Origin: Wenjunlia tyrosinilytica
GTDB taxonomy: Bacteria > Actinomycetota > Actinomycetes > Streptomycetales > Streptomycetaceae
Length of the DNA stretch: 40,343 bases
Assembly (NCBI RefSeq): GCF_014646055.1
Contig: NZ_BMMS01000044.1
Span: forward strand, 1-40,343
Reading direction: 5' to 3'
Shown here: in pieces, positions 1 to 16,764 of the stretch
Numbering within the stretch: position 1 is the first letter of the stretch
Layout: every line of letters begins with the position of its first letter
Made by a program: the position numbers and the translations under genes
Notes under the pieces: generated by a model
What the model saw: only the letters and a program-made list of their open reading frames with translations
Told to the model about the DNA's origin: nothing
Database searches by the model: none

Positions 1-2399
1 GGTGGTTCCAACTGGCCGTACCCGAGCTCGAACGTCGCGGTGACGGCCAGTTCGCCCACCCGCAGCTCGTCCAGCCGCCGCCGATCGTCGGCCAGCTTCT
101 TCGCCAGGACCGAGACCGTCCAGGTGCGCCGGGTGGCCAGGCGCGAGGCGGCGATCCGGATGGCCAGCGGCAGGAAGCCGCACGCCACGACCACGTCCAT
201 GGCAACGTCCCGTTCCGCTCCGACCCGCTCCTGCCCGACGATCCGGGTGAACAGGGTCAGCGCCTCCTCCGGGCTCATCACATCCAGGTCCACCAGGTGG
301 GCGCCGGCCAGGTCCACCATCCTGGTGCGGCCGGTGACCAGCACCGCGCAGCCGGGGGAGCCGGGCAGCAGGGGGCGCACCTGGGTGGCGTCACGGGCGT
401 TGTCCAGCAGGATCAGAACGCGGCGTCCAGCAAGCGTGGAGCGGAACAGCGCTGCTCGTTGATCCAGACCGTCCGGGATGGCTTGGTCAGGGATACCCAG
501 GGCCTGGAGGAAGGACCCGAGAACGGCTTCAGGCAGGGTTGGGGCAGGTTGATCGCCGAGCAGGTCGACGTAGAGCTGCCCGTCGGGGAAGTGCTCGCAG
601 GCGGCGTGCGCGACATGGACCGCCAGCGTGGTCTTGCCGACACCGCCGATGCCCGCCACCGCGGAGACTGCCATGACCCGGCCCTCCGCGCTCGACAACT
701 GCTCGCTCAGCTCCTCCACGAACGCCTTGCGCCCGGTGAAGTCGGCCACCGTCGCCGGTAGTTGGGCCGGGCGGACGGTCTGATGCTCCCCCGCCCCCGC
801 CCCCGCCCCCGCCGCCGGGGGCGCCGCGGCGTGCACCGGGGGCGTCAGCGCGGGGTCGGCCTGGAGCACCCGCTGGTAAAGCTCGGCGAGTTCGGGACCG
901 GGGTCGATGCCGAGTTCCTCGGCGAGCAGGCGGCGGGTGTCGGCGTAGACGCCCAGCGCCTCGGCCTGCCGCCCACCCCGGTACAGGGCCAGCATGAGCA
1001 GGCCACGCAGCCGCTCGCGCAGCGGGTACTCGGCGGACAGCGCGGTCAGCTCCGAGACCGCCTCGGCATGGCCGCCGAGCTCCAGATCCAACTCCAGACG
1101 GCTCTCCAGGAGCGCGATCCGCCAGTCGGACAGCCGCGAGCGCTGCGCCGCGGCGTACGGGCCGGGGACACCGGCGAGCGGTTCTCCCTCCCACAGCGAC
1201 AGCGCCTGGCGCAGCAACTCCCGTGCCCGGGGAAGCTCACCGGTGGCACGCACCTTCTCCGCCTCGACGGCCAGCTTCTGGCAGACGCTCAGGTCCAGTG
1301 CCCCGGGCACGCTTTTGACGAGATAGCCACCCGCATCGGAGATCAGGACATCCGAGCCGAGGGCCTTGCGCAAGCGGAACGCGTAGGTGCGCAACGCGGC
1401 GAGGGCCCTTTCCGGGGCCTCCTCGCCCCATACGGCGTCCACCAATTCGTTGAGGGTTGCAGTGCGGCCATCGCGCAACACAAGCGCCGACAGCACGGCT
1501 CGTTGCTGGGGCGAACCGGTATCGAGCCAATGCCCATCGCGTTGGGCCCTCACTGGTCCGAGCACCGAGAAGCGGACGTCTGCTGTCCGACGCGGCAAAG
1601 CAAGCGGTGCCGCAGGGGCAATGATGGGCCGGTAGATGTTCTGGTCGCCGCGCATGATGGCAGAACGCATCGCCTGCAACGCTCCGACATCGGTGGGAGC
1701 AGCGTCCTTGGGTAGGGCAGTTAGAACGCGTTGCTGCGTTTGCAGTGCTTCATAGGCGCGATCGGTGTTGTACAGGGCTGCAATCAACTGCAGTTGAAAG
1801 CGCGCATACGAGGGATACTCGCCGCTGAGACGCATGAGCTCGGGAACGACGCGCGAGGAACGCCCAAGAGACAGGTCAGCCTCGATGCGCAGAGCCAGGG
1901 CCTCCAGGCGGAGACCTTCAAGACGGCCCGCCTGTCGGCGAAGGCCGTCGCCGCCAGCGCATCCCGCGATCGCCGGCCCACTCCACAGCTGCAAAGACCG
2001 CTGCAACAGGCTGTGTGCGAGGTCGGTGCTCCCGTCCGCAAGAGCTTGACGGGCCTTGGCCGTCAGATCCTCGAATCTGACCAGGTCCAGGCTGCGCCTG
2101 GGGATATGGGCTGCGTAACCGACTGGATGCGATGCGATGATCTGGCGACACCGGCTCGTCCCTACCTCCACAGCGATGGGTTTACGCAGCTGATGAACGC
2201 ATGACTGCACTTGGGCAGTCGCTGTCACCGGAGCTCCCGTACCCCACACATCCGCGATAATGCTCTCGCGCGGCACAACCGTGTCGACGGCCAGCAGCAG
2301 CGAGGCGAGAAAGCTGCGCGCACGAGGTGCCGAGGGTGTGACGTCACGCCCGTCCACAATCAACGTCACTGGCCCCAGCAATCGGGCTTCCACGCTCAT
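1..2399 (-). CDS. Double-SARP, NB-ARC regulator of the AfsR type (C-terminus outside window)
   Basis: The frame stays open from the ATG at 2399 down to base 1 (about 799 codons visible). Seen: an N-terminal winged-helix/BTAD module (about aa 1-255, beginning MSVEARLLGPVTL). A second complete SARP module follows (about 276-525, beginning RFSVLGPV, with the LLAEELGIDPGPEL segment typical of BTAD). An Ala/Gly linker then leads to an NB-ARC ATPase from about aa 555. Its Walker A is GIGGVGKTT (near 585), kinase-2 is RRVLILLDNARD and the GLPL-like motif is GFLPLAIRI. Family knowledge: SARPs bind direct repeats and activate antibiotic pathway genes, and NB-ARC gates AfsR-type activators by nucleotide. 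The start overlaps the stop of the upstream SARP (ATGA), implying translational coupling. Two SARP modules in one chain is unusual. TPR repeats may follow outside the window. Confidence 0.85.
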   Translation of the reverse strand, partial: MSVEARLLGPVTLIVDGRDVTPSAPRARSFLASLLLAVDTVVPRESIIADVWGTGAPVTATAQVQSCVHQLRKPIAVEVGTSRCRQIIASHPVGYAAHIPRRSLDLVRFEDLTAKARQALADGSTDLAHSLLQRSLQLWSGPAIAGCAGGDGLRRQAGRLEGLRLEALALRIEADLSLGRSSRVVPELMRLSGEYPSYARFQLQLIAALYNTDRAYEALQTQQRVLTALPKDAAPTDVGALQAMRSAIMRGDQNIYRPIIAPAAPLALPRRTADVRFSVLGPVRAQRDGHWLDTGSPQQRAVLSALVLRDGRTATLNELVDAVWGEEAPERALAALRTYAFRLRKALGSDVLISDAGGYLVKSVPGALDLSVCQKLAVEAEKVRATGELPRARELLRQALSLWEGEPLAGVPGPYAAAQRSRLSDWRIALLESRLELDLELGGHAEAVSELTALSAEYPLRERLRGLLMLALYRGGRQAEALGVYADTRRLLAEELGIDPGPELAELYQRVLQADPALTPPVHAAAPPAAGAGAGAGEHQTVRPAQLPATVADFTGRKAFVEELSEQLSSAEGRVMAVSAVAGIGGVGKTTLAVHVAHAACEHFPDGQLYVDLLGDQPAPTLPEAVLGSFLQALGIPDQAIPDGLDQRAALFRSTLAGRRVLILLDNARDATQVRPLLPGSPGCAVLVTGRTRMVDLAGAHLVDLDVMSPEEALTLFTRIVGQERVGAERDVAMDVVVACGFLPLAIRIAASRLATRRTWTVSVLAKKLADDRRRLDELRVGELAVTATFELGYGQLEP
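788..811. repeat. Four tandem CCCCCG hexamers in the SARP/NB-ARC linker
   Basis: Four perfect copies of the hexamer lie inside the double-SARP gene and encode an Ala-Gly run on the minus strand. A change in copy number would keep the frame and only change linker length. Confidence 0.8.
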
Positions 2400-3202
2400 C
2401 GGGCTGCGCCACCAAGGTGAGGCTGCGCATCCGCAGAGCCGGACCGCAGGTGCTCGTACTGGATCAGCAGGGAGCGTGGCGCCATTCTGAAGTTCGTTTG
2501 CCAACGCGCCAGCTCATCGGCGAGCAGGCTTAGCGCACGGCTGGAGTCACCCGAATCCCTCAAGGCGGAGGACAGCAGAATCACCACCCTCTCATCATTA
2601 GGGTGGCGCATACGCAGATCCCACAAGTCTTGCATGGCTCGGGACGCGGCTCCGACATCGATCAAGCAGGCTGCCCGGCGCTTGCGAGCATCGAAGCGCA
2701 TCTCTTCCAGACTGGACCGGATGCCGTCGAAGTAGACAGAGCTCCAAATCCCGCCCAAAGGATCGCCTCGCCACAGGCGCAGCGCAGAGTCGAACGCCTC
2801 TATCGCGCGTGCGCTATCTCCCTTCGCTTGATGCGCCTCGCCCTCGTCCAGTAGCTGGCGGAACCGGTGCACATCGATGCACTCGGATCCGGCATGCAGG
2901 GTGTAGCTCCCGCTGTCGGAGTCATGGGCCGGGTGATGGACTACGCGCGGCGCATCGGCAACGCCGAAGCTCCGTAGCTGGCTCCGAACGTGGTGGACAT
3001 GGACCTGTAGCGCTGTCACCGCGGAGGCCGGGGGACGTGAGCCCCAGATGCGCTCACGCAGGCACGCGACACTAACCGCCTCGTTGGTGGCGAGAAGCAG
3101 GATGACCAGTACTGCCAGGCGCTGGGGCGGCCCCATGGCAATCGGGATCGACTCGCGGCGGCACTGCACCGGCCCGAGGAGAAAAAACTGACAACCCGTC
3201 AT
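2396..3202 (-). CDS. Stand-alone SARP-family transcriptional activator (winged helix + BTAD)
   Basis: 268 aa. The N-terminus (CQFFLLGPVQ, then a winged-helix stretch with LRERIWGSRPPASAVTALQVHVHHVRSQLR) is the OmpR-like DNA-binding part of a SARP. The second half (about aa 115-255, helical, with LDEGEAHQAKGDSARAIEAF and LRLWRGDPLGGI) is a bacterial transcriptional activator domain. Its length is normal for small SARPs of the RedD/ActII-ORF4 kind; no ATPase is present. A purine-rich stretch about 10 nt before the ATG could serve as ribosome binding site. Its stop shares ATGA with the start of the double-SARP gene, so the two are almost certainly co-translated. Targets are unknown and no biosynthetic genes are visible in the window. 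Confidence 0.85.
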   Translation of the reverse strand: MTGCQFFLLGPVQCRRESIPIAMGPPQRLAVLVILLLATNEAVSVACLRERIWGSRPPASAVTALQVHVHHVRSQLRSFGVADAPRVVHHPAHDSDSGSYTLHAGSECIDVHRFRQLLDEGEAHQAKGDSARAIEAFDSALRLWRGDPLGGIWSSVYFDGIRSSLEEMRFDARKRRAACLIDVGAASRAMQDLWDLRMRHPNDERVVILLSSALRDSGDSSRALSLLADELARWQTNFRMAPRSLLIQYEHLRSGSADAQPHLGGAAR

Positions 3203-3216
3203 AGTTAGTTTCCCCC

Positions 3217-3585
3217 CTACGATGCCTGCGGCTTCAGGCTAACAGCTCGCATAGCATCCGTTAAGCGATCGAGAAGGATCGCACTTCGGTACAGGTCACC
3301 GACGAGTAGGTCATGGCGCAACGAGGGCTTTCTGGAGGACCAGCATCTGTCCGCCTGTCTATCTCCATCAATAATTGAACATGGGGCGCAGGAGGTTCCC
3401 GCGGCCCACACGGACGGACTCGTTCCGCCGCGCAGCCTCGAGGAAACCTGCGCAACATCACGCCAACGGCCGGTCGCCAACTGGTCCAACACAGCCGTCG
3501 GCCACCTCGCCGACAGCCGCTCGATCTGCTCATATGCTACTTCAGCCCAGGCATGGCGACGCATGGCGACCACATTGGCCGCCAA
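3217..3585 (-). CDS. Possible small gene upstream of the SARP pair
   Basis: 122 aa, no family recognised. The first half (VAYEQIERLSARWPTAVLDQLATGRW) and the last 35 residues (LLVGDLYRSAILLDRLTDAM) look protein-like. The middle is richer in Cys/Trp/Ser and less convincing, so a frameshift or a chance ORF is possible. It ends 14 nt before the SARP start, which would make it the first gene of the operon. ATG at 3585 is the longest start; an internal ATG 7 codons later is also possible. Confidence 0.35.
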   Translation of the reverse strand: MAANVVAMRRHAWAEVAYEQIERLSARWPTAVLDQLATGRWRDVAQVSSRLRGGTSPSVWAAGTSCAPCSIIDGDRQADRCWSSRKPSLRHDLLVGDLYRSAILLDRLTDAMRAVSLKPQAS

Positions 3586-4181
3586 CCCGCGTGGTCCCCT
3601 CAGAGACTCGACTCACGCCTACGGCAGCTGGCCACCCCTCTACGGGCCGGTTTTGCGGGCGCGAAACGGACGTACGTCCGCCAGGTCGGGGCAGATCCTC
3701 CACTGCTGCGCTCGTCCTCGACGGCGCAGCATGGCTAGAAGTATCCGTTAAGTGAGAGCATAGAGATCGAAGAGACAGTCCGTGATAAGAGCCCGTCAAC
3801 GTGGACATACAGCGTTTGAAACTGCATGCAGATTGCCTGCCCAGGGCGCCGGAGGATAGTGGTGGGTGTCTTGTGGCCGCCTAGTCCGACGACTACCTGT
3901 CCCAGGACACAGGTGGAGTGCCTCGGGGGTGGTAGCCCGAGGCACCCACCTTCCCCTCCGAAGCACAGGGACCGCACTCGGACGGCCAGTCGGGCTGGAT
4001 AAGCACCGCAGCCGTACTCGACTCCGTCAACTCTGGTGTATGTCGCCCCACTTAGGCTACCGTCGTCGTTACTTGCCGTGCGGTGGTGGGGTAGATGGAG
4101 CTCTCCTACCTGAGCTTTTCATGATCTTTTCCGCTGACGCTCGTCAAGAGTCGGACTAGGCATGGCTCAAGAGGAGATTTC
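3586..4181. other. Long intergenic region with a strong hairpin
   Basis: About 600 nt without a convincing gene. It holds the hairpin at 3912-3950 and the second copy of a 10-mer (ATCCGTTAAG at 3743-3752; first copy at 3256-3265 inside the small ORF upstream of the SARP). It should contain the promoter of the minus-strand SARP operon and of the plus-strand small membrane gene, but no clear -35/-10 pair could be picked. Confidence 0.4.
3912..3950. terminator. Perfect-stem hairpin, possible terminator
   Basis: GTGCCTCGGG (3918-3927) pairs perfectly with CCCGAGGCAC (3936-3945). The stem continues after one bulged A with GGTGG/CCACC (3912-3916 with 3946-3950). There is no T-tract, as often in actinomycetes. 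It could also be an operator. Confidence 0.45.
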
Positions 4182-4379
4182 ATGGAACAGCAACGTTCCA
4201 CATTGCTCATGGCCGGGGTGGTCGTTGCCCTGGCCTTCTTTGTGCTGGTGGGCTTCCTTGCCCGGACCCTGCGCGCCAAGCGCGGCCTGCCCGTGACCAT
4301 CGTGGCGATCGGATCCCTGATTGGTACGCTTCCACCCATCCTCCTTGCCATTTACGAGGTGCTGAAGCCGATTGCCTGA
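4182..4379 (+). CDS. Small two-helix membrane protein
   Basis: 65 aa, family not recognised. Two hydrophobic segments are visible: about aa 8-28 (LLMAGVVVALAFFVLVGFL) and about 37-58 (PVTIVAIGSLIGTLPPILLAI). They are separated by a short basic loop (ARTLRAKRG). A good ribosome binding site (AGGAG) lies about 7 nt before the ATG. It stands alone between a large intergenic region and the IS4 remnant. The function cannot be inferred. Confidence 0.6.
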   Translation: MEQQRSTLLMAGVVVALAFFVLVGFLARTLRAKRGLPVTIVAIGSLIGTLPPILLAIYEVLKPIA

Positions 4380-7361: not shown

Positions 7362-10022
7362 ATGGCGGAGCGGCAGGGGCGGGGCGGTAGGCGAACACCA
7401 GGGATCGATCGCCCAGGGAGCGACGGGCCGTGGGCAGATCTGGCTCGGCTTCTGTATGACGAGTTGTACAAGCCAGCGGGCCGTCCAACGCTGGCGGACA
7501 TCGCAAAGCAGGCTCACATATCTGTTGGATGGGTGAATTACATACTCAAGGGCCAGCGGCCATCCACATGGCAGACAGGCAAGGGTGTTGTCGCGGCGCT
7601 AAAAGGCAAGCCCGACGACTGGGAACCACGGTGGGCGAAGGCCGAGCGCCGTCATGAAGAAGGGCGCCGTGCGGGCAAGTTCCCGCCGCTGCCCTGGGTG
7701 GAGGACGACAGCGAGCGTCCCACCAAGGAATCGTTGGGGGTGGGTGATTGGCAGCGTCCACGTAGGGCGACGTGGCGTTGGGCTCGGAGCATGGCCTGGA
7801 CCCTGCTCGGCTTGTTGGGGATCACCACTGCAGCGGGCCTGGTCGCGTGGCGACAGGACAAGGTTGGATTCGCAGCCGCAGGGCTGGCACTGGCAGTCGA
7901 GCTGGCTGCTGCCGCGGCATGGCAGCAGCAGCATCGCCATCGGGCCAACTCCTCCTTACGCAGACGCCAAGTGATGATCAAGCACGTTCTGTTCCGGGCC
8001 GAGGAGACCCTGTCCCACAGAGGGAAGAACCTCTACCTGCATCCGCGGTTCACCCGGCTCACCGACGAACCCGGCACGAGGCGGGACAGACGCAGGCATC
8101 GACGATCATCAGGACCCCACGCCATCCGAGAACCAGTAGCCGAGGATACGACGCTCCGTGAACTCTTCGGTTCTGCGGCGGAAAGCCTCGTACTCATCGG
8201 CGATTCCGGACTCGGCAAGACGACCCAACTGGCCACTCTGGCTAGGGAACTCTCCCTCGAAGCACTGAAGCAGATCGAGGAGATCGATACAGGTCAGAGG
8301 CACAAGCCGCCCGTGATCCCGCTTCTGCTCAGCCTGGCCAGGTACCGTGGGCAGCCCCTGCATGACTGGATCGCCGACGAGGTCAGGATCGCCTACGACG
8401 GCATCTCCACGGAGATTACCCGCGCCTGGCTGGCCGAAGACGCGATCCTGCCCCTCCTGGACGGACTCGACCGAGTACCCGAGGAACACCGGTATGCCTG
8501 CGCAGAGGAGATCCGTCAGTTCCGGGAGCAGTGCACCGGAGTGGTGGTGACCTGCCGTGAACGTGACTATGGTCTCGCCAAGACCATCCGGGCCTTACAG
8601 TATATCGAACTCGGTAAGCCCGACCGCCACCAAGTGCAAGCGTACCTGACCACCCACGCTGATGCTCTGGCCGACGTACGCGCCGCGTTGGAGGCGGATC
8701 GCAACCTCTGGGGTTTGCTGCAATCCCCATTGATGCTCAACATCATCAGCCACACCTACGCCCATCGGCCTGCGACTGAGCTACGCGATCCAGGCACCCC
8801 CGAGCAGCGCCTCAGCCGCATCCTTGACGCCTACGTCCGCCGCATGCTCGACCACCGCTCCACTTCGTACCAGGACCGCGAGACCCTGCAGTGGTTGACG
8901 TGGCTCGCCCGCACCCTCACGGCCCGAGGGGAACACGTGCTCTACCTCGACCGGATCGATCCGACTTGGGTTCCCCGAGCCGTGGGTGATCCATGGGATA
9001 CGGTCGGCGGGATCCGCGGCCGGCGATATTCAGCGCTGTGGAACCTCCTCACGCTTGACGGCTTGGTGGAACGCCTTGAGGGCGGTCAGGGCGGAGGACG
9101 TCGGAACTCGCCCCCGGGGCGCTGGTCGGTGGACGCCATCACGATCGGTCTCATCGCTGGTATCGCGGTGCTCCTGGGGGCGGTTTTCCTCGCTGCTACA
9201 GGAACCCTGACGGAACCAGATCTGCTGGGTATCGCGGCGTTCCTGTTCATCGCCAGCGGCCGACTGTGGGGATCAGTCCTCGAACACCTGCTGATAAAAG
9301 GCGTAAACCCAGTGGAACGAGTCACCTGGACTTGGCAGTGGCGCTCCTCGACGACGGACAACTACAAAAACATCGTCTCCACCGACTTCAAGCACCTGAC
9401 GATGTTTCATGTAATAACCAACGCTATGCAGGTGTTCTTCATCTTTGTATCTATGGGCACCGTTAGCGCTCACCCGGACGACTTGAGCGCCATCGCCTTC
9501 TTCTTTGCAGCTGCGTTGGGATGCGCGGAACTGTTCATCTCAGACCGCCTGATACCGCACATCACCGAACACCGTGCCCAACCCAACGAAGGCATCCGCC
9601 GCTCAGCCCGGTACTGCGCGATCAGCGCGATCTGCTTCGGCCTCACCGCCGGAGTCCTGACTGCTGGCATCACCATGCTCTCCGACGACACCACCACACC
9701 AGGGCGTATGGCCCTTACAGGTCTCATCGTCGGTACCTACATAGGATTGTCTCGCGGGCTCGGCCTCGGCGGCTACGCCGTCCTGCGCCACATTGTCATG
9801 CGAGTCCTGCTGGCACGTTCCGGCTCTGCCCCCCTTCGCTACAAACACTTCCTCCATGACTCCGAAATCCGCATCCTGTTGCGCCGCTCTGGTAGCGGAT
9901 TCATTTTCCCGCACCAACTACTTCTAGAACACTTCGATATCCCGTACGAATCCTTGCTCGCCCGCGTGCATGGCGATTGCCCAACAGCACACATGGGTGA
10001 GAACGCTGGTCCTCGGAGTTGA
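7362..10022 (+). CDS. Membrane-anchored NACHT NTPase with N-terminal HTH
   Basis: 886 aa. In order: an Xre-like helix-turn-helix at about aa 30-80 (LADIAKQAHISVGWVNYILKG) and two hydrophobic helices at about 146-188. A NACHT-type STAND NTPase domain starts near 260, with Walker A GDSGLGKTT (about 280) and Walker B ILPLLDGLDRV (about 362). A C-terminal half carries about six hydrophobic segments between 590 and 803. Family knowledge: bacterial NACHT proteins include antiphage sensors, and others are regulators. The HTH plus a many-helix tail in place of a repeat sensor is an unusual layout. The start is ATG 7362 with GAGGGAG about 12 nt upstream. The gene is isolated, flanked by relics of mobile elements and near a restriction-modification gene, which suits a defence role (inference). 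Confidence 0.8.
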   Translation: MAERQGRGGRRTPGIDRPGSDGPWADLARLLYDELYKPAGRPTLADIAKQAHISVGWVNYILKGQRPSTWQTGKGVVAALKGKPDDWEPRWAKAERRHEEGRRAGKFPPLPWVEDDSERPTKESLGVGDWQRPRRATWRWARSMAWTLLGLLGITTAAGLVAWRQDKVGFAAAGLALAVELAAAAAWQQQHRHRANSSLRRRQVMIKHVLFRAEETLSHRGKNLYLHPRFTRLTDEPGTRRDRRRHRRSSGPHAIREPVAEDTTLRELFGSAAESLVLIGDSGLGKTTQLATLARELSLEALKQIEEIDTGQRHKPPVIPLLLSLARYRGQPLHDWIADEVRIAYDGISTEITRAWLAEDAILPLLDGLDRVPEEHRYACAEEIRQFREQCTGVVVTCRERDYGLAKTIRALQYIELGKPDRHQVQAYLTTHADALADVRAALEADRNLWGLLQSPLMLNIISHTYAHRPATELRDPGTPEQRLSRILDAYVRRMLDHRSTSYQDRETLQWLTWLARTLTARGEHVLYLDRIDPTWVPRAVGDPWDTVGGIRGRRYSALWNLLTLDGLVERLEGGQGGGRRNSPPGRWSVDAITIGLIAGIAVLLGAVFLAATGTLTEPDLLGIAAFLFIASGRLWGSVLEHLLIKGVNPVERVTWTWQWRSSTTDNYKNIVSTDFKHLTMFHVITNAMQVFFIFVSMGTVSAHPDDLSAIAFFFAAALGCAELFISDRLIPHITEHRAQPNEGIRRSARYCAISAICFGLTAGVLTAGITMLSDDTTTPGRMALTGLIVGTYIGLSRGLGLGGYAVLRHIVMRVLLARSGSAPLRYKHFLHDSEIRILLRRSGSGFIFPHQLLLEHFDIPYESLLARVHGDCPTAHMGENAGPRS

Positions 10023-13095: not shown

Positions 13096-13299
13096 TAGGG
13101 GACCCCTTTAAGGGCCTGCAGCACCGACCTGTGCCAGAGCTGCGGATCAGAAGGTTGAACCCGTGCAGCGCGGGGAGATGGGGGCACTGCCGGAGGCCGG
13201 TGGGTGTACGCAGCCTTGAGACCCTCTCGACGGTCAGTGATGTTGTACTTACCCTGTGTTGAGTTGGATACCAGGAGTGTGCTGGCCTCTGGGGGCGGG

Positions 13300-16200
13300 A
13301 TGCAGCGCAGGGACGGGTTTCGGCGGATCATCAGCGAGTTCGGTGCAGCGTGCAAGCAGGCATTGCTGCACGGGCAGAAGGAAGCCGCGATCCGTCGCGC
13401 CGTGGAGACGCTTCTCGTCGACGCGGCGAACGTGTTAGGGCTACAGGCCGTCCTGCATGCCGAGGTAGCGATTGCCGCGCACCGAATCCGCCCCGACCTG
13501 GCTGTGCGGATCGGGAAGTTATCTCGCAACATCGTCGGCTACGTCGAGCTGAAGAGCCCGGACAAGAGCGTGATCCATCCTGGCGGACTGAACCAACGTG
13601 ATCGACGGCAGTGGGAGGGCATGGCGAAGCTCCCCAACTTGATCTACACCAACGGCCAGACCTGGATCATGTATCGCTCAGGGCGGCAACACGGCGACGC
13701 CATCCATCTCAACGGCGATCTGCGTACTGCCGGGGCCCGCCTGCGGCTACCGGTAGCCAGCGAAGCCGCCTTCGAATCAATGCTGACGGCGTTCTTCAGT
13801 TGGCAGCCGCATCCACTGACATCGATGCGGGAAGTTGTCGCTCAGGTAGCCCCGCTGTGCACACTCCTGCGCGATGCTGTCCACGACCGGCTCGACGCCG
13901 AGGCCAGGCTCCCGCGCCACCGGCGTCCCTTCACTGACCTGGCCTCCACTCTCGAAGTCGATCTCTTTCCCACCACTGATGATCGGGACAAACGCGCGGC
14001 CTTCGCCGACCGCTATGCCCAATCCGTCACCTTCGCGCTCCTACTCGCAAGCTCGGATGCCGCCGATGGCCATGACAGCTCACTGGCCAGGATGAGCCTG
14101 CATGAGGTCGGCCGCCGGCTGGGAGCGGAGCATTCCGTCATGGGGCGCGCTCTGCAGATCCTCACCGACCAGGTCGAGGGAGAATTTCGCGACAGCCTCG
14201 ACATGCTCGTTCGCGTCATCGACGCCATCGACTGGCGGAGCGCCCTGGCCAGCGAACCCGGCTTCCACATCCACCTTTACGAACACTTCCTGCAGGAGTA
14301 CGACCCCGACCTCCGCAAGGACTCCGGCACCTACTACACCCCAGCGCCGCTGATGGAGGAGATGATCCGCCTTGTCGACGAAGTGCTGATCACCACGCTG
14401 GGTTGCCCAGCCGGTTTCGCCGACCCTGGCGTGTCCATCATCGACCCGGCCATGGGCACCGGCACCTTCCTCACCGGCATCATCGACCTCGTCGCCCGCA
14501 AGCAGTCCGAGGGCGGAAATGATGGCTTCCGTGCCGAATCCGTCCAAGAACTCGCAGGCCGACTGATCGGCTTCGAAAAGCAGATGGGCGCTTTCGCCGT
14601 TGCGCAGATGCGCGTCGGGCAGATGCTGCGTTCTCTCAACGCCCGGGTTCGGCTGCGCGACATGCGCCTACATCTAGCCGACACCCTTGCTGACCCCTGG
14701 CGGCCGAGCGAACTCTTCACCCGCTACGGCGCCCTGTGGGGCCCCTTGCGCGACGACGCTGAAGCCGCAAGCTTCATCCAGCGCGAAGGCCGCATCACTG
14801 TCGTCATCGGCAATCCTCCCCACCGCGAACAGGCGGAAGGCCAGGGTGGATGGATCGAGAATGGCTCACCAGACCGAGGCGCCCCACCGCTGGACGCCTT
14901 CCGGCTACACGGTGCGGCAGGGGTGTACGAGAACAAACTGAAAAGCCTCTGCACCTACTTCTGGCGCTGGGCCACGCACAAGGTGTTCGACCAGTACGAC
15001 GACCACCGTCACGGCGTTGTCTGCTTCGTTAGTACCGGCGGGTTCATCCGCGGCGCCGGCTTTCAGGGCATGCGCTCGTACCTGCGCCGCACTTGCACCG
15101 AGGGCTGGGTCATCGACCTCACTCCTGAAACGAAGAGACCGCCACTCAACAGCCGTTTCTTCCCGGGCGTCCAGCAGGAATTAGCCATAGCCATTTTTGT
15201 CCGCAAGCAAGGCGAGCGGCGAGACCAACTGGCCCCTGTCCACTACGCGGCCGTCCACGGCACTCGCCGGGACAAAGAAGAGCAACTACACGACCTGCAC
15301 ATCAACGGCCCCGACTGGCGCACTTCCCGGCCTGTCAAGCACGCCCCCTTCACACCCGCCTCCCACAGCGGCTGGGACTCCTTTCCCGCTCTCACCGACC
15401 TCATGCCCTGGCGTAAACCGGGCATAAAACCCAACCGGAACTGGGTCTTCAGTCCATCCAAAACCACCTTGCGTCGACGATGGGACCGCCTCGTCCAGGA
15501 ACGTGACCTCTCAACGCAAAAGGCACTGTTCAAAGAGACCCGCGACCGCACCTTGGACAAGGAAGCCGTCCAGATACCCGGTCACCCCCACCCGCCGACC
15601 CTTCTCCGCGACGAGCACAGCGCCTGTCCTGTTCCGATACGCGTCGCCCGCAGAGCCTGGGACCGCCAATGGCTCATACCCGACGGGCGCGTCATCGACT
15701 TTTCCCGCCCGGAGCTATGGCAAGCCGTCATAGACGGCCAGGTCTTCATCGTCGAACAGCACTCACAACGCCTGCAGACTGGCCCAGCCCTGCTCTTTAC
15801 CGCGCTCATCCCGGACATGCACTACTTCAACGGCAACGGCGGTCGCGTGCTGCCGTTCCTGCATGCAGACCGCTCGCCCAACATCGCCCCCGGGCTGTTA
15901 CATCACCTCGCCAACTCCTACGGTCTCCAAGAGGTCATCCCGGAAGACCTGCTGGCCTACGTCGGCGCCGTCACCGCCCATCCCACCTTCACCGAGCGCT
16001 ATGCAGACGACCTCAACTCACTCGGCGTACGCATCCCCTTGACCGCCGCTAGTGACCTCTGGCATGAGGCCGTCAGCCTGGGACACCACATTCTGTGGGC
16101 GTCCACCTTCGGCACACGAAGCATCAGTCCAGGTGATGGACGCCCCGCAGGCACATCGAACTGGTGGAGAGACCTGCATCCCGAGATCACATACGCCCGA

Positions 16201-16764
16201 CAAGTCGCGCCTGACGGGCTCCCCTCCACGATCACCTACGACTCCGAAAACGAGCACCTGATCATCGAGGGGGGCGTCTTCACTGGCGTCACGCCGCGCA
16301 TGCGCAACTACACCACCGGCGGTCGTAACGTACTCGACAGCTGGCTCGCGTACCGCAGCACCCGCAGCGCCGGCAAGGTGACCAGCGAACTCGACCGCGA
16401 GCGCCCAGAGCACTGGGAGCACGAGTGGAGTCGGGAACTCGTGGAGATCCTCGCCGTACTTAGTCACCTGACTGACCTGGAGCCGCGGCAGGCAGAGTTA
16501 CTCGACCGCATAGTGACCGCCCCTCTGATCGATGTGGCTGAACTGAATCGGCGCCGCATCCTCCCAGTACCCGAGCGCGCCAAGAACGCTCGCACCGATC
16601 CGGACCACGCGTTTCTGCCCGGCCTGGAAACAGTCGATGGTCAACCTCCTGGACCTGTCGAGCCTCTAACGCCCCCGAACGACTCCCCGGGTGACGCGGC
16701 ACCTGACCGGCACTCACCTGTGCGGCCCGGCCCTCATGCCCGACGGCACCGCGGTCGGGCATGA
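13300..16764 (+). CDS. Type ISP-like single-chain restriction-modification enzyme without helicase
   Basis: About 1155 aa from ATG 13300 (the frame opens at GTG 13204; ATG 13300 was chosen because family-like sequence begins there). Seen: an N-terminal PD-(D/E)xK nuclease (RPDLAV near aa 64, VGYVELKSP near 80, LPNLIYTNG). An alpha-helical coupler ends in YEHFLQEYDPDLRKDSGTYYTP. An N6-adenine methylase follows, with motif I DPAMGTGTF (about 383) and motif IV GNPPHREQ (about 505). A long C-terminal region resembles the type ISP specificity domain. Family knowledge: LlaBIII-type ISP enzymes also carry a RecA-like helicase between nuclease and methylase. It is missing here, so the layout is closer to type IIG/IIL. 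NPPH in place of NPPY/F is a key substitution. Flanked by an IS and a Uma2 relic. Confidence 0.8.
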   Translation: MQRRDGFRRIISEFGAACKQALLHGQKEAAIRRAVETLLVDAANVLGLQAVLHAEVAIAAHRIRPDLAVRIGKLSRNIVGYVELKSPDKSVIHPGGLNQRDRRQWEGMAKLPNLIYTNGQTWIMYRSGRQHGDAIHLNGDLRTAGARLRLPVASEAAFESMLTAFFSWQPHPLTSMREVVAQVAPLCTLLRDAVHDRLDAEARLPRHRRPFTDLASTLEVDLFPTTDDRDKRAAFADRYAQSVTFALLLASSDAADGHDSSLARMSLHEVGRRLGAEHSVMGRALQILTDQVEGEFRDSLDMLVRVIDAIDWRSALASEPGFHIHLYEHFLQEYDPDLRKDSGTYYTPAPLMEEMIRLVDEVLITTLGCPAGFADPGVSIIDPAMGTGTFLTGIIDLVARKQSEGGNDGFRAESVQELAGRLIGFEKQMGAFAVAQMRVGQMLRSLNARVRLRDMRLHLADTLADPWRPSELFTRYGALWGPLRDDAEAASFIQREGRITVVIGNPPHREQAEGQGGWIENGSPDRGAPPLDAFRLHGAAGVYENKLKSLCTYFWRWATHKVFDQYDDHRHGVVCFVSTGGFIRGAGFQGMRSYLRRTCTEGWVIDLTPETKRPPLNSRFFPGVQQELAIAIFVRKQGERRDQLAPVHYAAVHGTRRDKEEQLHDLHINGPDWRTSRPVKHAPFTPASHSGWDSFPALTDLMPWRKPGIKPNRNWVFSPSKTTLRRRWDRLVQERDLSTQKALFKETRDRTLDKEAVQIPGHPHPPTLLRDEHSACPVPIRVARRAWDRQWLIPDGRVIDFSRPELWQAVIDGQVFIVEQHSQRLQTGPALLFTALIPDMHYFNGNGGRVLPFLHADRSPNIAPGLLHHLANSYGLQEVIPEDLLAYVGAVTAHPTFTERYADDLNSLGVRIPLTAASDLWHEAVSLGHHILWASTFGTRSISPGDGRPAGTSNWWRDLHPEITYARQVAPDGLPSTITYDSENEHLIIEGGVFTGVTPRMRNYTTGGRNVLDSWLAYRSTRSAGKVTSELDRERPEHWEHEWSRELVEILAVLSHLTDLEPRQAELLDRIVTAPLIDVAELNRRRILPVPERAKNARTDPDHAFLPGLETVDGQPPGPVEPLTPPNDSPGDAAPDRHSPVRPGPHARRHRGRA

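Follow-up and report, generated by a model that had tools for sequence, protein, structure and literature searches.

Two coupled genes join three SARP modules to an AfsR-like ATPase half beside a candidate leader RNA in Wenjunlia tyrosinilytica

AfsR is a global SARP of antibiotic control in Streptomyces, and its solved structure shows a pair of identical protomers bound to two repeats. In a 40,343-nucleotide stretch of DNA from Wenjunlia tyrosinilytica (contig NZ_BMMS01000044.1, here C44; the whole stretch is called the window), two overlapping genes encode three SARP modules: a stand-alone SARP, which we call S3, and a fused protein in which a first and a second module (M1 and M2) precede an NB-ARC ATPase domain. 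The modules are not equivalent. M2 and the ATPase form an AfsR-like half, S3 and M1 each have an ancestry of their own, and a small gene with an RNA-like leader is divergent from S3; none of this was seen by an earlier note on the same DNA, which had described the three modules and their coupling. The two-gene layout recurs in seven other genomes, which excludes a chance origin.

A tandem-SARP fusion coupled to a third SARP

The fused gene (3..2399, minus strand) has 799 visible residues. The earlier note had proposed extending the sequence leftwards to see the C-terminus; the window begins at base 1 of C44, and the gene is thus cut by the contig end. Pfam bears out the reading of two SARP modules followed by NB-ARC in one polypeptide, with two BTAD stretches (226.6 bits for the whole protein, cut-off 22.1), two Trans_reg_C stretches (55 bits, cut-off 26.2) and an NB-ARC domain at residues 558-760 (120..728, minus strand; 61.1 bits, cut-off 23.5) whose Walker A motif is intact. 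M1 spans residues 1-270 (1590..2399, minus strand) and is part of a conserved cassette, with orthologues in seven other genomes. M2, at about residues 271-525 (825..1589, minus strand), is AfsR-like by Pfam, alignment to AfsR, residues and tree. S3 (268 residues; 2396..3202, minus strand), identified by Pfam and trees, matches BTAD above the cut-off (78.3 bits) and Trans_reg_C slightly below it (24.5 bits, cut-off 26.2). Its stop shares an ATGA with the start of the fused gene, read in the DNA at 2396..2399 (minus strand), and both reading frames are open, so the coupling to a third, stand-alone SARP stands as described.

The search for further SARP-SARP-NB-ARC genomes that the earlier note had suggested found the complete layout in eight genomes of three genera, the window's included. 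In each carrier the S3 stop overlaps the start of the M1-M2-NB-ARC gene by 4-11 nt (in genome G234 only with a GTG start). Among 297 genomes of the family, S3 orthologues were found in the window's own and four others at E 4.9e-53 or better, the next match being at 4.1e-31. An M1 profile run on 392 genomes of genus g9 gave at least 351 bits for G265 and G581 and 215 bits for G427, with the next at 198; on inspection G427 has the full unit. On 70 genomes of genus g14 the same profile found three at 398-404 bits, the next at 183.5, and in a phylum sample of 396 genomes 15 matched at E 1e-50, only the window's own above 195 bits. An S3 profile matched 39 of 197 genomes in an order sample at E 1e-35, only the window's own (445) and G265 (412) exceeding 151 bits. 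These genome samples overlap and their counts are not additive, and distant members below the score gaps may be missed. The eighth carrier, G1097, was found through the RNA hairpin model described below; it is close to G265 (S3 95% and M1 92% identical).

A plasmid search with S3 and M1 gave only matches below 60% identity, one with the leader and small gene gave none, and viral contigs held no S3 relative. Between relatives, in pairs that never include the window, the ratio of nonsynonymous to synonymous substitution rates (dN/dS) is 0.15-0.39 for S3 (4 pairs), 0.32-0.60 for M1 (3 pairs), 0.13-0.36 for M2 (3 pairs), 0.43-0.59 for the NB-ARC/TPR part (3 pairs) and 0.22-0.69 for the small gene (4 pairs of 67 codons). 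These ratios point to purifying selection between relatives on each of the coding parts tested. Searches of open full-text PMC papers listed nothing on AfsR capture, on AfsR fusions with tandem SARPs or on the leader RNA.

The Walker A motif is intact in 7/7 fusions examined, and AfsR is ATP-gated (PMC10936776), which makes the ATP control proposed earlier plausible. TPR regions are present in three of the four relatives' fusions scanned (G265, G427 and G140), with none reported in G234. The G234 fusion (L123:5773-11091, minus strand) has S3 and M1-M2-NB-ARC as elsewhere, and another ATPase-like part plus repeats replace the C-terminal TPR. Other frames with two BTADs occur at G234:C223:219830-221293 and at G166:C1:1195004-1195957, the latter about 13 kb from the unit.

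Separate ancestries, residues and the resident AfsR

Residues 271-799 of the fused protein align to S. coelicolor AfsR 21-546 with 740 bits. For comparison we took the best 80 AfsR loci from a search of named genomes, all titled Streptomyces. At 79 of the 80 the AfsR frame has one SARP module, in agreement with the statement that AfsR-type regulators usually have one; the exception, L030, has two.

In a 73-row tree, S3 forms one clade (100/100) and M1 another (100/98), and M2 rows are dispersed among AfsR genes. Forcing M2 into a single clade gives a log-likelihood 117 lower, and the approximately unbiased test rejects it (p-AU 4e-48). The M1 rows of this tree and test are the first 225 residues; for G427, S3 was taken from a position that is no start codon, the ATG lying 9 nt downstream; and G1097 is absent from the trees, residue counts and RNA alignment. 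A second tree, with 45 rows, covers M2 plus NB-ARC; some of its rows, FUS_G234 among them, are long. It requires no fewer than four label changes for the fusions, and a single change suffices in 0 of 200 bootstrap trees. Here the window's fusion pairs with its own genome's AfsR (100/100), the G427 fusion pairs with its own (100/100), and the sister group of the three g14 fusions consists of the AfsR-like genes from their own genomes (six-row clade, 100/100). For G265 and G581 the fusions branch outside the rest of the Streptomyces-type AfsR rows (92/98, unstarred); their M2 lies inside Streptomyces AfsR in the 73-row tree. Since the AfsR halves are polyphyletic while S3 and M1 are each a clade, either the S3-M1 cassette was joined to the local AfsR several times, or an old fusion was repeatedly overwritten by gene conversion.

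The window's genome also has a single-SARP AfsR on contig C53. Compared as DNA, the two genes share 82.9% identity across 1,167 bp and 95.6% across 361 bp, and identity climbs to 100% at the contig end. C44 and C53 stop at an identical point in the gene and contigs C9 and C99 begin at an identical C-terminal point, which suggests that the assembly was broken by a shared repeat; no stretch bridging the two contig sides was found in a search of the window's genome. Of the genes beside AfsR on C53, four are matched in 37-52 of the 80 Streptomyces AfsR loci, on the upstream side in the rows listed. On C9, three of the four neighbouring genes are matched in 34-42 of the 80, on the downstream side in the rows listed. 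For the remaining C9 gene and the two genes of C99, none of the 80 loci has a match. Therefore C53-C9 is the AfsR locus, and the conserved chromosomal neighbourhood of AfsR is at C53 and C9, not at the window gene. By elimination, the most likely continuation of the fused gene is contig C99, which is 5 kb long. This contig, which probably bears the C-terminus of the fused gene, also has a phage-integrase-family gene (L137:4023-4607, minus strand).

In G427 the fusion is 88.4% identical to its own AfsR over 2,848 bp, from the M1/M2 border onwards. In 7/7 carriers searched, a set without G1097, an AfsR or AfsR-like gene is retained apart from the fusion. Two AfsR paralogues of G581 (L183 and L190) are 100% identical over about 600 bp of their SARP part and 63-95% alike in the remainder, a pattern that looks like recent gene conversion; thus exchange among such genes appears to occur. 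G265 has two further AfsR copies (L185 and L198), each of which runs into a contig end at the same residue (224 of the query), as if that assembly had also been broken by a common repeat.

The contacts made by the AfsR SARP pair on DNA are distinct upstream and downstream, as described in PMC10936776, and we mapped the contact residues given there onto the modules of seven carriers. The three base-reading residues are kept in M2 of 7/7 carriers and in no S3 row; the S3 recognition helix is uniform (Q, V or G, H) and differs from that of AfsR. The nine BTA-side polymerase contacts, counted with full M1 rows, average 9.0 in AfsR (10 rows), 8.4 in M2, 7.0 in other SARPs (42 rows, chosen by similarity to AfsR and so favouring full BTADs), 2.9 in M1 and 1.3 in S3. 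Coverage of the BTAD model is a less biased comparison: in seven genomes, 10 of 14 M1/S3 modules end at or before position 130, against 5 of 138 other BTAD matches, three of the five being short fragments.

The earlier note had called both fused modules complete. AlphaFold2 predicts a complete SARP fold for the window's M1 (pLDDT 89.5; TM scores 0.81 and 0.87 to AfsR 8k60_J), although its alignment rows were 25 AfsR SARPs and may bias the model. The claim needs qualifying, as the M1 BTAD match ends at position 129 of 146 and few of the AfsR polymerase-contact residues are kept. A truncation of M1 by two helices was considered and dropped for the window copy, in which AlphaFold2 predicts both helices. 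For S3 the BTA part is predicted with confidence and the DNA-binding part with low confidence. M2 keeps the base-reading residues and most polymerase contacts of AfsR, and S3 and M1 are predicted to keep the SARP fold with few polymerase contacts.

The intergenic region, a candidate leader RNA and a small membrane protein

The putative S3 promoter (3236..3265, minus strand) combines a CTTAACGGATG repeat with a TAnnnT hexamer after it. As plain counts, CTTAACG precedes S3 in 8/8 carriers and CTGA lies 11 bp further on in 7/8, with a TAnnnT hexamer behind; all hexamers were picked out by eye. S3 looks leaderless in G427, G140, G166 and G234. On the other side, an 11-bp repeat of GTTT/CTTT type lies upstream of the leader in 7/8 carriers, with a -10-like hexamer 5 nt past the second 11-mer. 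PMC10936776 states an 8-bp spacing for SARP promoters, and the arrangement would fit this spacing if the core is 8 bp, as in AfsR. Some 490 bp that separate S3 from the leader in the window (3266-3752) are additional compared with its relatives and are flanked by two copies of CTTAACGGAT; the second copy (3740..3752, minus strand) is found in the window only.

The stretch between S3 and the small gene is strongly conserved among carriers, and by conservation, covariation and folding energy it is a candidate structured leader RNA (3865..4171, plus strand; about 300 nt conserved). The predicted fold, on the small-gene strand, has an outer stem, P1 (5' strand 3873..3888; 3' strand 4152..4166, directly before the ribosome-binding site), and two hairpins, P2 (3918..3945, with UGGUAG in the loop; hairpin model R1 matches 3898-3960 with 68.2 bits) and P3 (4098..4117, loop CCUACC), all on the plus strand. 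The loop sequences UGGUAG and CUACCA are fully complementary in 6/7. In an alignment of seven rows, from which the structure itself was derived, standard pairs fill 93.1% of pair cells, compared with 35-54% when the structure is slid. The covariation score is 0.231 against 0.152 in shuffled alignments, and 16 cells are changed on both sides against 7.1; neither value was reached in 500 shuffles. Hairpin stems vary on both sides and their loops are fixed, G-U pairs favour the small-gene strand, and single-sequence folding z-scores are -3.6, -5.9 and -3.8 (three sequences, folded on the small-gene strand only). The conserved stretch thus looks like a structured leader RNA, which would be transcribed ahead of the small gene.

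Rfam gave one sub-threshold match in the window, on the opposite strand (25.2 bits, gathering score 55), and none at four relatives' loci. The single-hairpin model matched 17 of 394 family genomes at E 0.01. The six that score at least 51 bits are all carriers of the unit. Five of them were in the model, and the sixth is G1097, previously unknown. Hits in G195 (41.7 bits) and G218 (37.4 bits) were set aside, having no S3, M1 or small gene nearby, and nine further genomes scored 30.4-36.2 bits. Thirteen viral contigs with the 16-mer CGGGGGTGGTAGCCCG reached at most 33.1 bits with the RNA model and were taken as chance.

Downstream of a GAGGAG, and divergent from S3, the small gene (4182..4379, plus strand) encodes 65 residues with two hydrophobic helices. 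A homologue with 41-58% identity to it is present in five of the six other carriers compared, and a different small two-helix protein occupies its place in G427; the G1097 protein is 94% identical to that of G265. No convincing Pfam, PHROG or PADLOC family was found, the best match being a holin family (E 0.004, for the G265 protein).

The remainder of the window (4865-40343) looks mobile, with transposase and integrase genes, DNA methylases, PrgI, TraG/VirB4-like, coupling-protein-like, replication-relaxation and NucA/B-like genes. A type ISP/IIG restriction-modification gene lies at 13204-16764 (plus strand), and an 886-residue protein (7362-10022, plus strand) has a weak NACHT-like match (20.5 bits, cut-off 26.7) and no PADLOC match.

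Proposed mechanism, alternatives and known systems

We propose that S3, M1 fused to the AfsR half (M2-NB-ARC, with TPR in relatives), the common intergenic region and the small gene with its leader may act as one regulatory unit. M2 would be the module fitted for docking to RNA polymerase, and M2 with NB-ARC would carry the ATP gate of AfsR. M1, in cis, and S3, made in step through translational coupling, would read their own half-sites beside M2 in a heteromeric complex. The AfsR-type activator would thereby be retargeted to two promoters, that of the leader and small gene and that of the unit itself. An AfsR half kept near that of the host, by recent copying or gene conversion, could stay compatible with the host's polymerase and signals. 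The locus would then be an AfsR-derived, ATP-gated activator whose dedicated SARP modules direct it to the 11-bp repeats of the small gene and of itself, a reading that we favour tentatively and put at a little under an even chance.

Several observations weigh against it. The leader-promoter repeat of the window itself is degenerate. M2 keeps on average only 3.9 of the seven ODB-side contacts (other SARPs 1.9, M1 0.6, S3 0.9), and the 42 other SARPs keep just 1.0 of the three base-reading residues. The proposed loss of docking in M1 is read from its residues, because AlphaFold2 gives a complete M1 fold. S391 and T506, at which AfsR is phosphorylated, are not kept as a rule in the fusions. In the alignment of only seven rows, two of the five covariation measures are weak: the eight of 40 pairs changed on both sides were reached by 46/500 shuffles, and the count of further pair types by 128/500. 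Finally, no conserved neighbouring pathway was found in the carriers annotated. Their neighbours differ, and we propose no biosynthetic cluster as a target.

Other explanations account for parts of the data. S3 and M1 could be antagonists that bind or pair without docking to the polymerase, titrating AfsR or blocking its boxes, so that the unit damps AfsR. Their few polymerase contacts and the separate AfsR or AfsR-like gene in each of the seven carriers examined would fit this, but M2, in the same chain as M1, keeps the activation residues of AfsR, the S3 recognition helix is uniform and unlike that of AfsR, and SARP-type repeats lie beside the unit's own genes; we consider antagonism unlikely. 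We are similarly doubtful of a conditional membrane-toxin device, akin to defence or toxin-antitoxin systems, in which the STAND regulator would sense a trigger and release a toxin restrained by the folded leader. PADLOC is negative for the fused protein, S3 and the small protein, and in G265 and G581 the unit is surrounded by genes of photolyase, amine oxidase and AMP-ligase type rather than by defence genes; on the other hand, the window copy sits amid integrase, transposase, restriction-modification and conjugation genes, and a small two-helix protein adjoins the folded leader in eight carriers, a pairing of membrane peptide and folded leader as in type I toxin-antitoxin systems.

Alternatively, the conserved intergenic stretch could be a set of DNA operators (inverted and direct repeats) rather than RNA. 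It lies between two divergent promoters and contains inverted repeats, and some covariation measures are not significant, but the stems change on both sides around fixed loops, G-U pairs favour one strand and folding energies are low on the small-gene strand, for which they were computed; we consider this, too, improbable. Least probable, in our view, is a decaying AfsR duplicate beside an unrelated SARP in a mobile region, with nothing special about it. Tandem SARPs do occur elsewhere (L030, and two BTADs in one G234 frame) and the surroundings of the window are mobile, yet other genomes have the same combination of S3, M1, small gene and RNA, and dN/dS is 0.13-0.69 between relatives.

Returning to the retargeted activator, a broader statement of it seems to us possible, with clearly more doubt than confidence: the unit may be self-contained, a dedicated S3-M1 cassette that repeatedly captures, or is homogenised with, the resident AfsR and makes of its ATPase and activation head an asymmetric three-SARP activator, with one polymerase-docking and two specificity modules, whose dedicated output is an undescribed class of leader RNA and a membrane microprotein. 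A natural protein with two different, covalently linked, separately evolved protomers would allow a direct test of the upstream and downstream roles. Recurrent reuse of the host's own AfsR half, if true, would be an unusual route of regulator evolution. The leader RNA and membrane peptide are unannotated and could reveal what an AfsR-type switch senses or drives.

Among known systems, S. coelicolor AfsR (PDB 8k60, 8jke, 8hvr) resembles M2 plus NB-ARC across the alignment to AfsR 21-546: M2 keeps the DNA, base and most BTA contacts, and Walker A is intact. Unlike AfsR, the unit adds an N-terminal M1, a coupled S3 and a divergent small gene with its leader, and the window gene lies outside the AfsR locus, which is C53-C9. 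The large SARPs, or AfsR-type STAND regulators, likewise place ODB and BTAD before an NB-ARC ATPase with Walker A, but have one SARP module each where the window's fusion has two. S3 appears to share the ODB plus BTAD layout of small SARPs of the ActII-4 and RedD type (described in PMC10972967), but belongs to its own clade and has on average 1.3 of nine BTA contacts. In the S. boluensis L030 protein, too, NB-ARC and TPR are preceded by a pair of SARP modules, of which the second is AfsR-like, whereas the first lies outside the M1 clade and keeps 7 of 9 BTA contacts; the protein's 1810-residue frame (L030:3291-8723, plus strand) has a long N-terminal stretch before the SARP modules and no kinship to the M1 cassette. 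EmbR of M. tuberculosis (PDB 2fez, 2ff4) has a SARP fold to which the predicted M1 model compares with a TM score of 0.82; it differs from the fusion in its FHA domain (PMC10936776) and in having a single SARP module.

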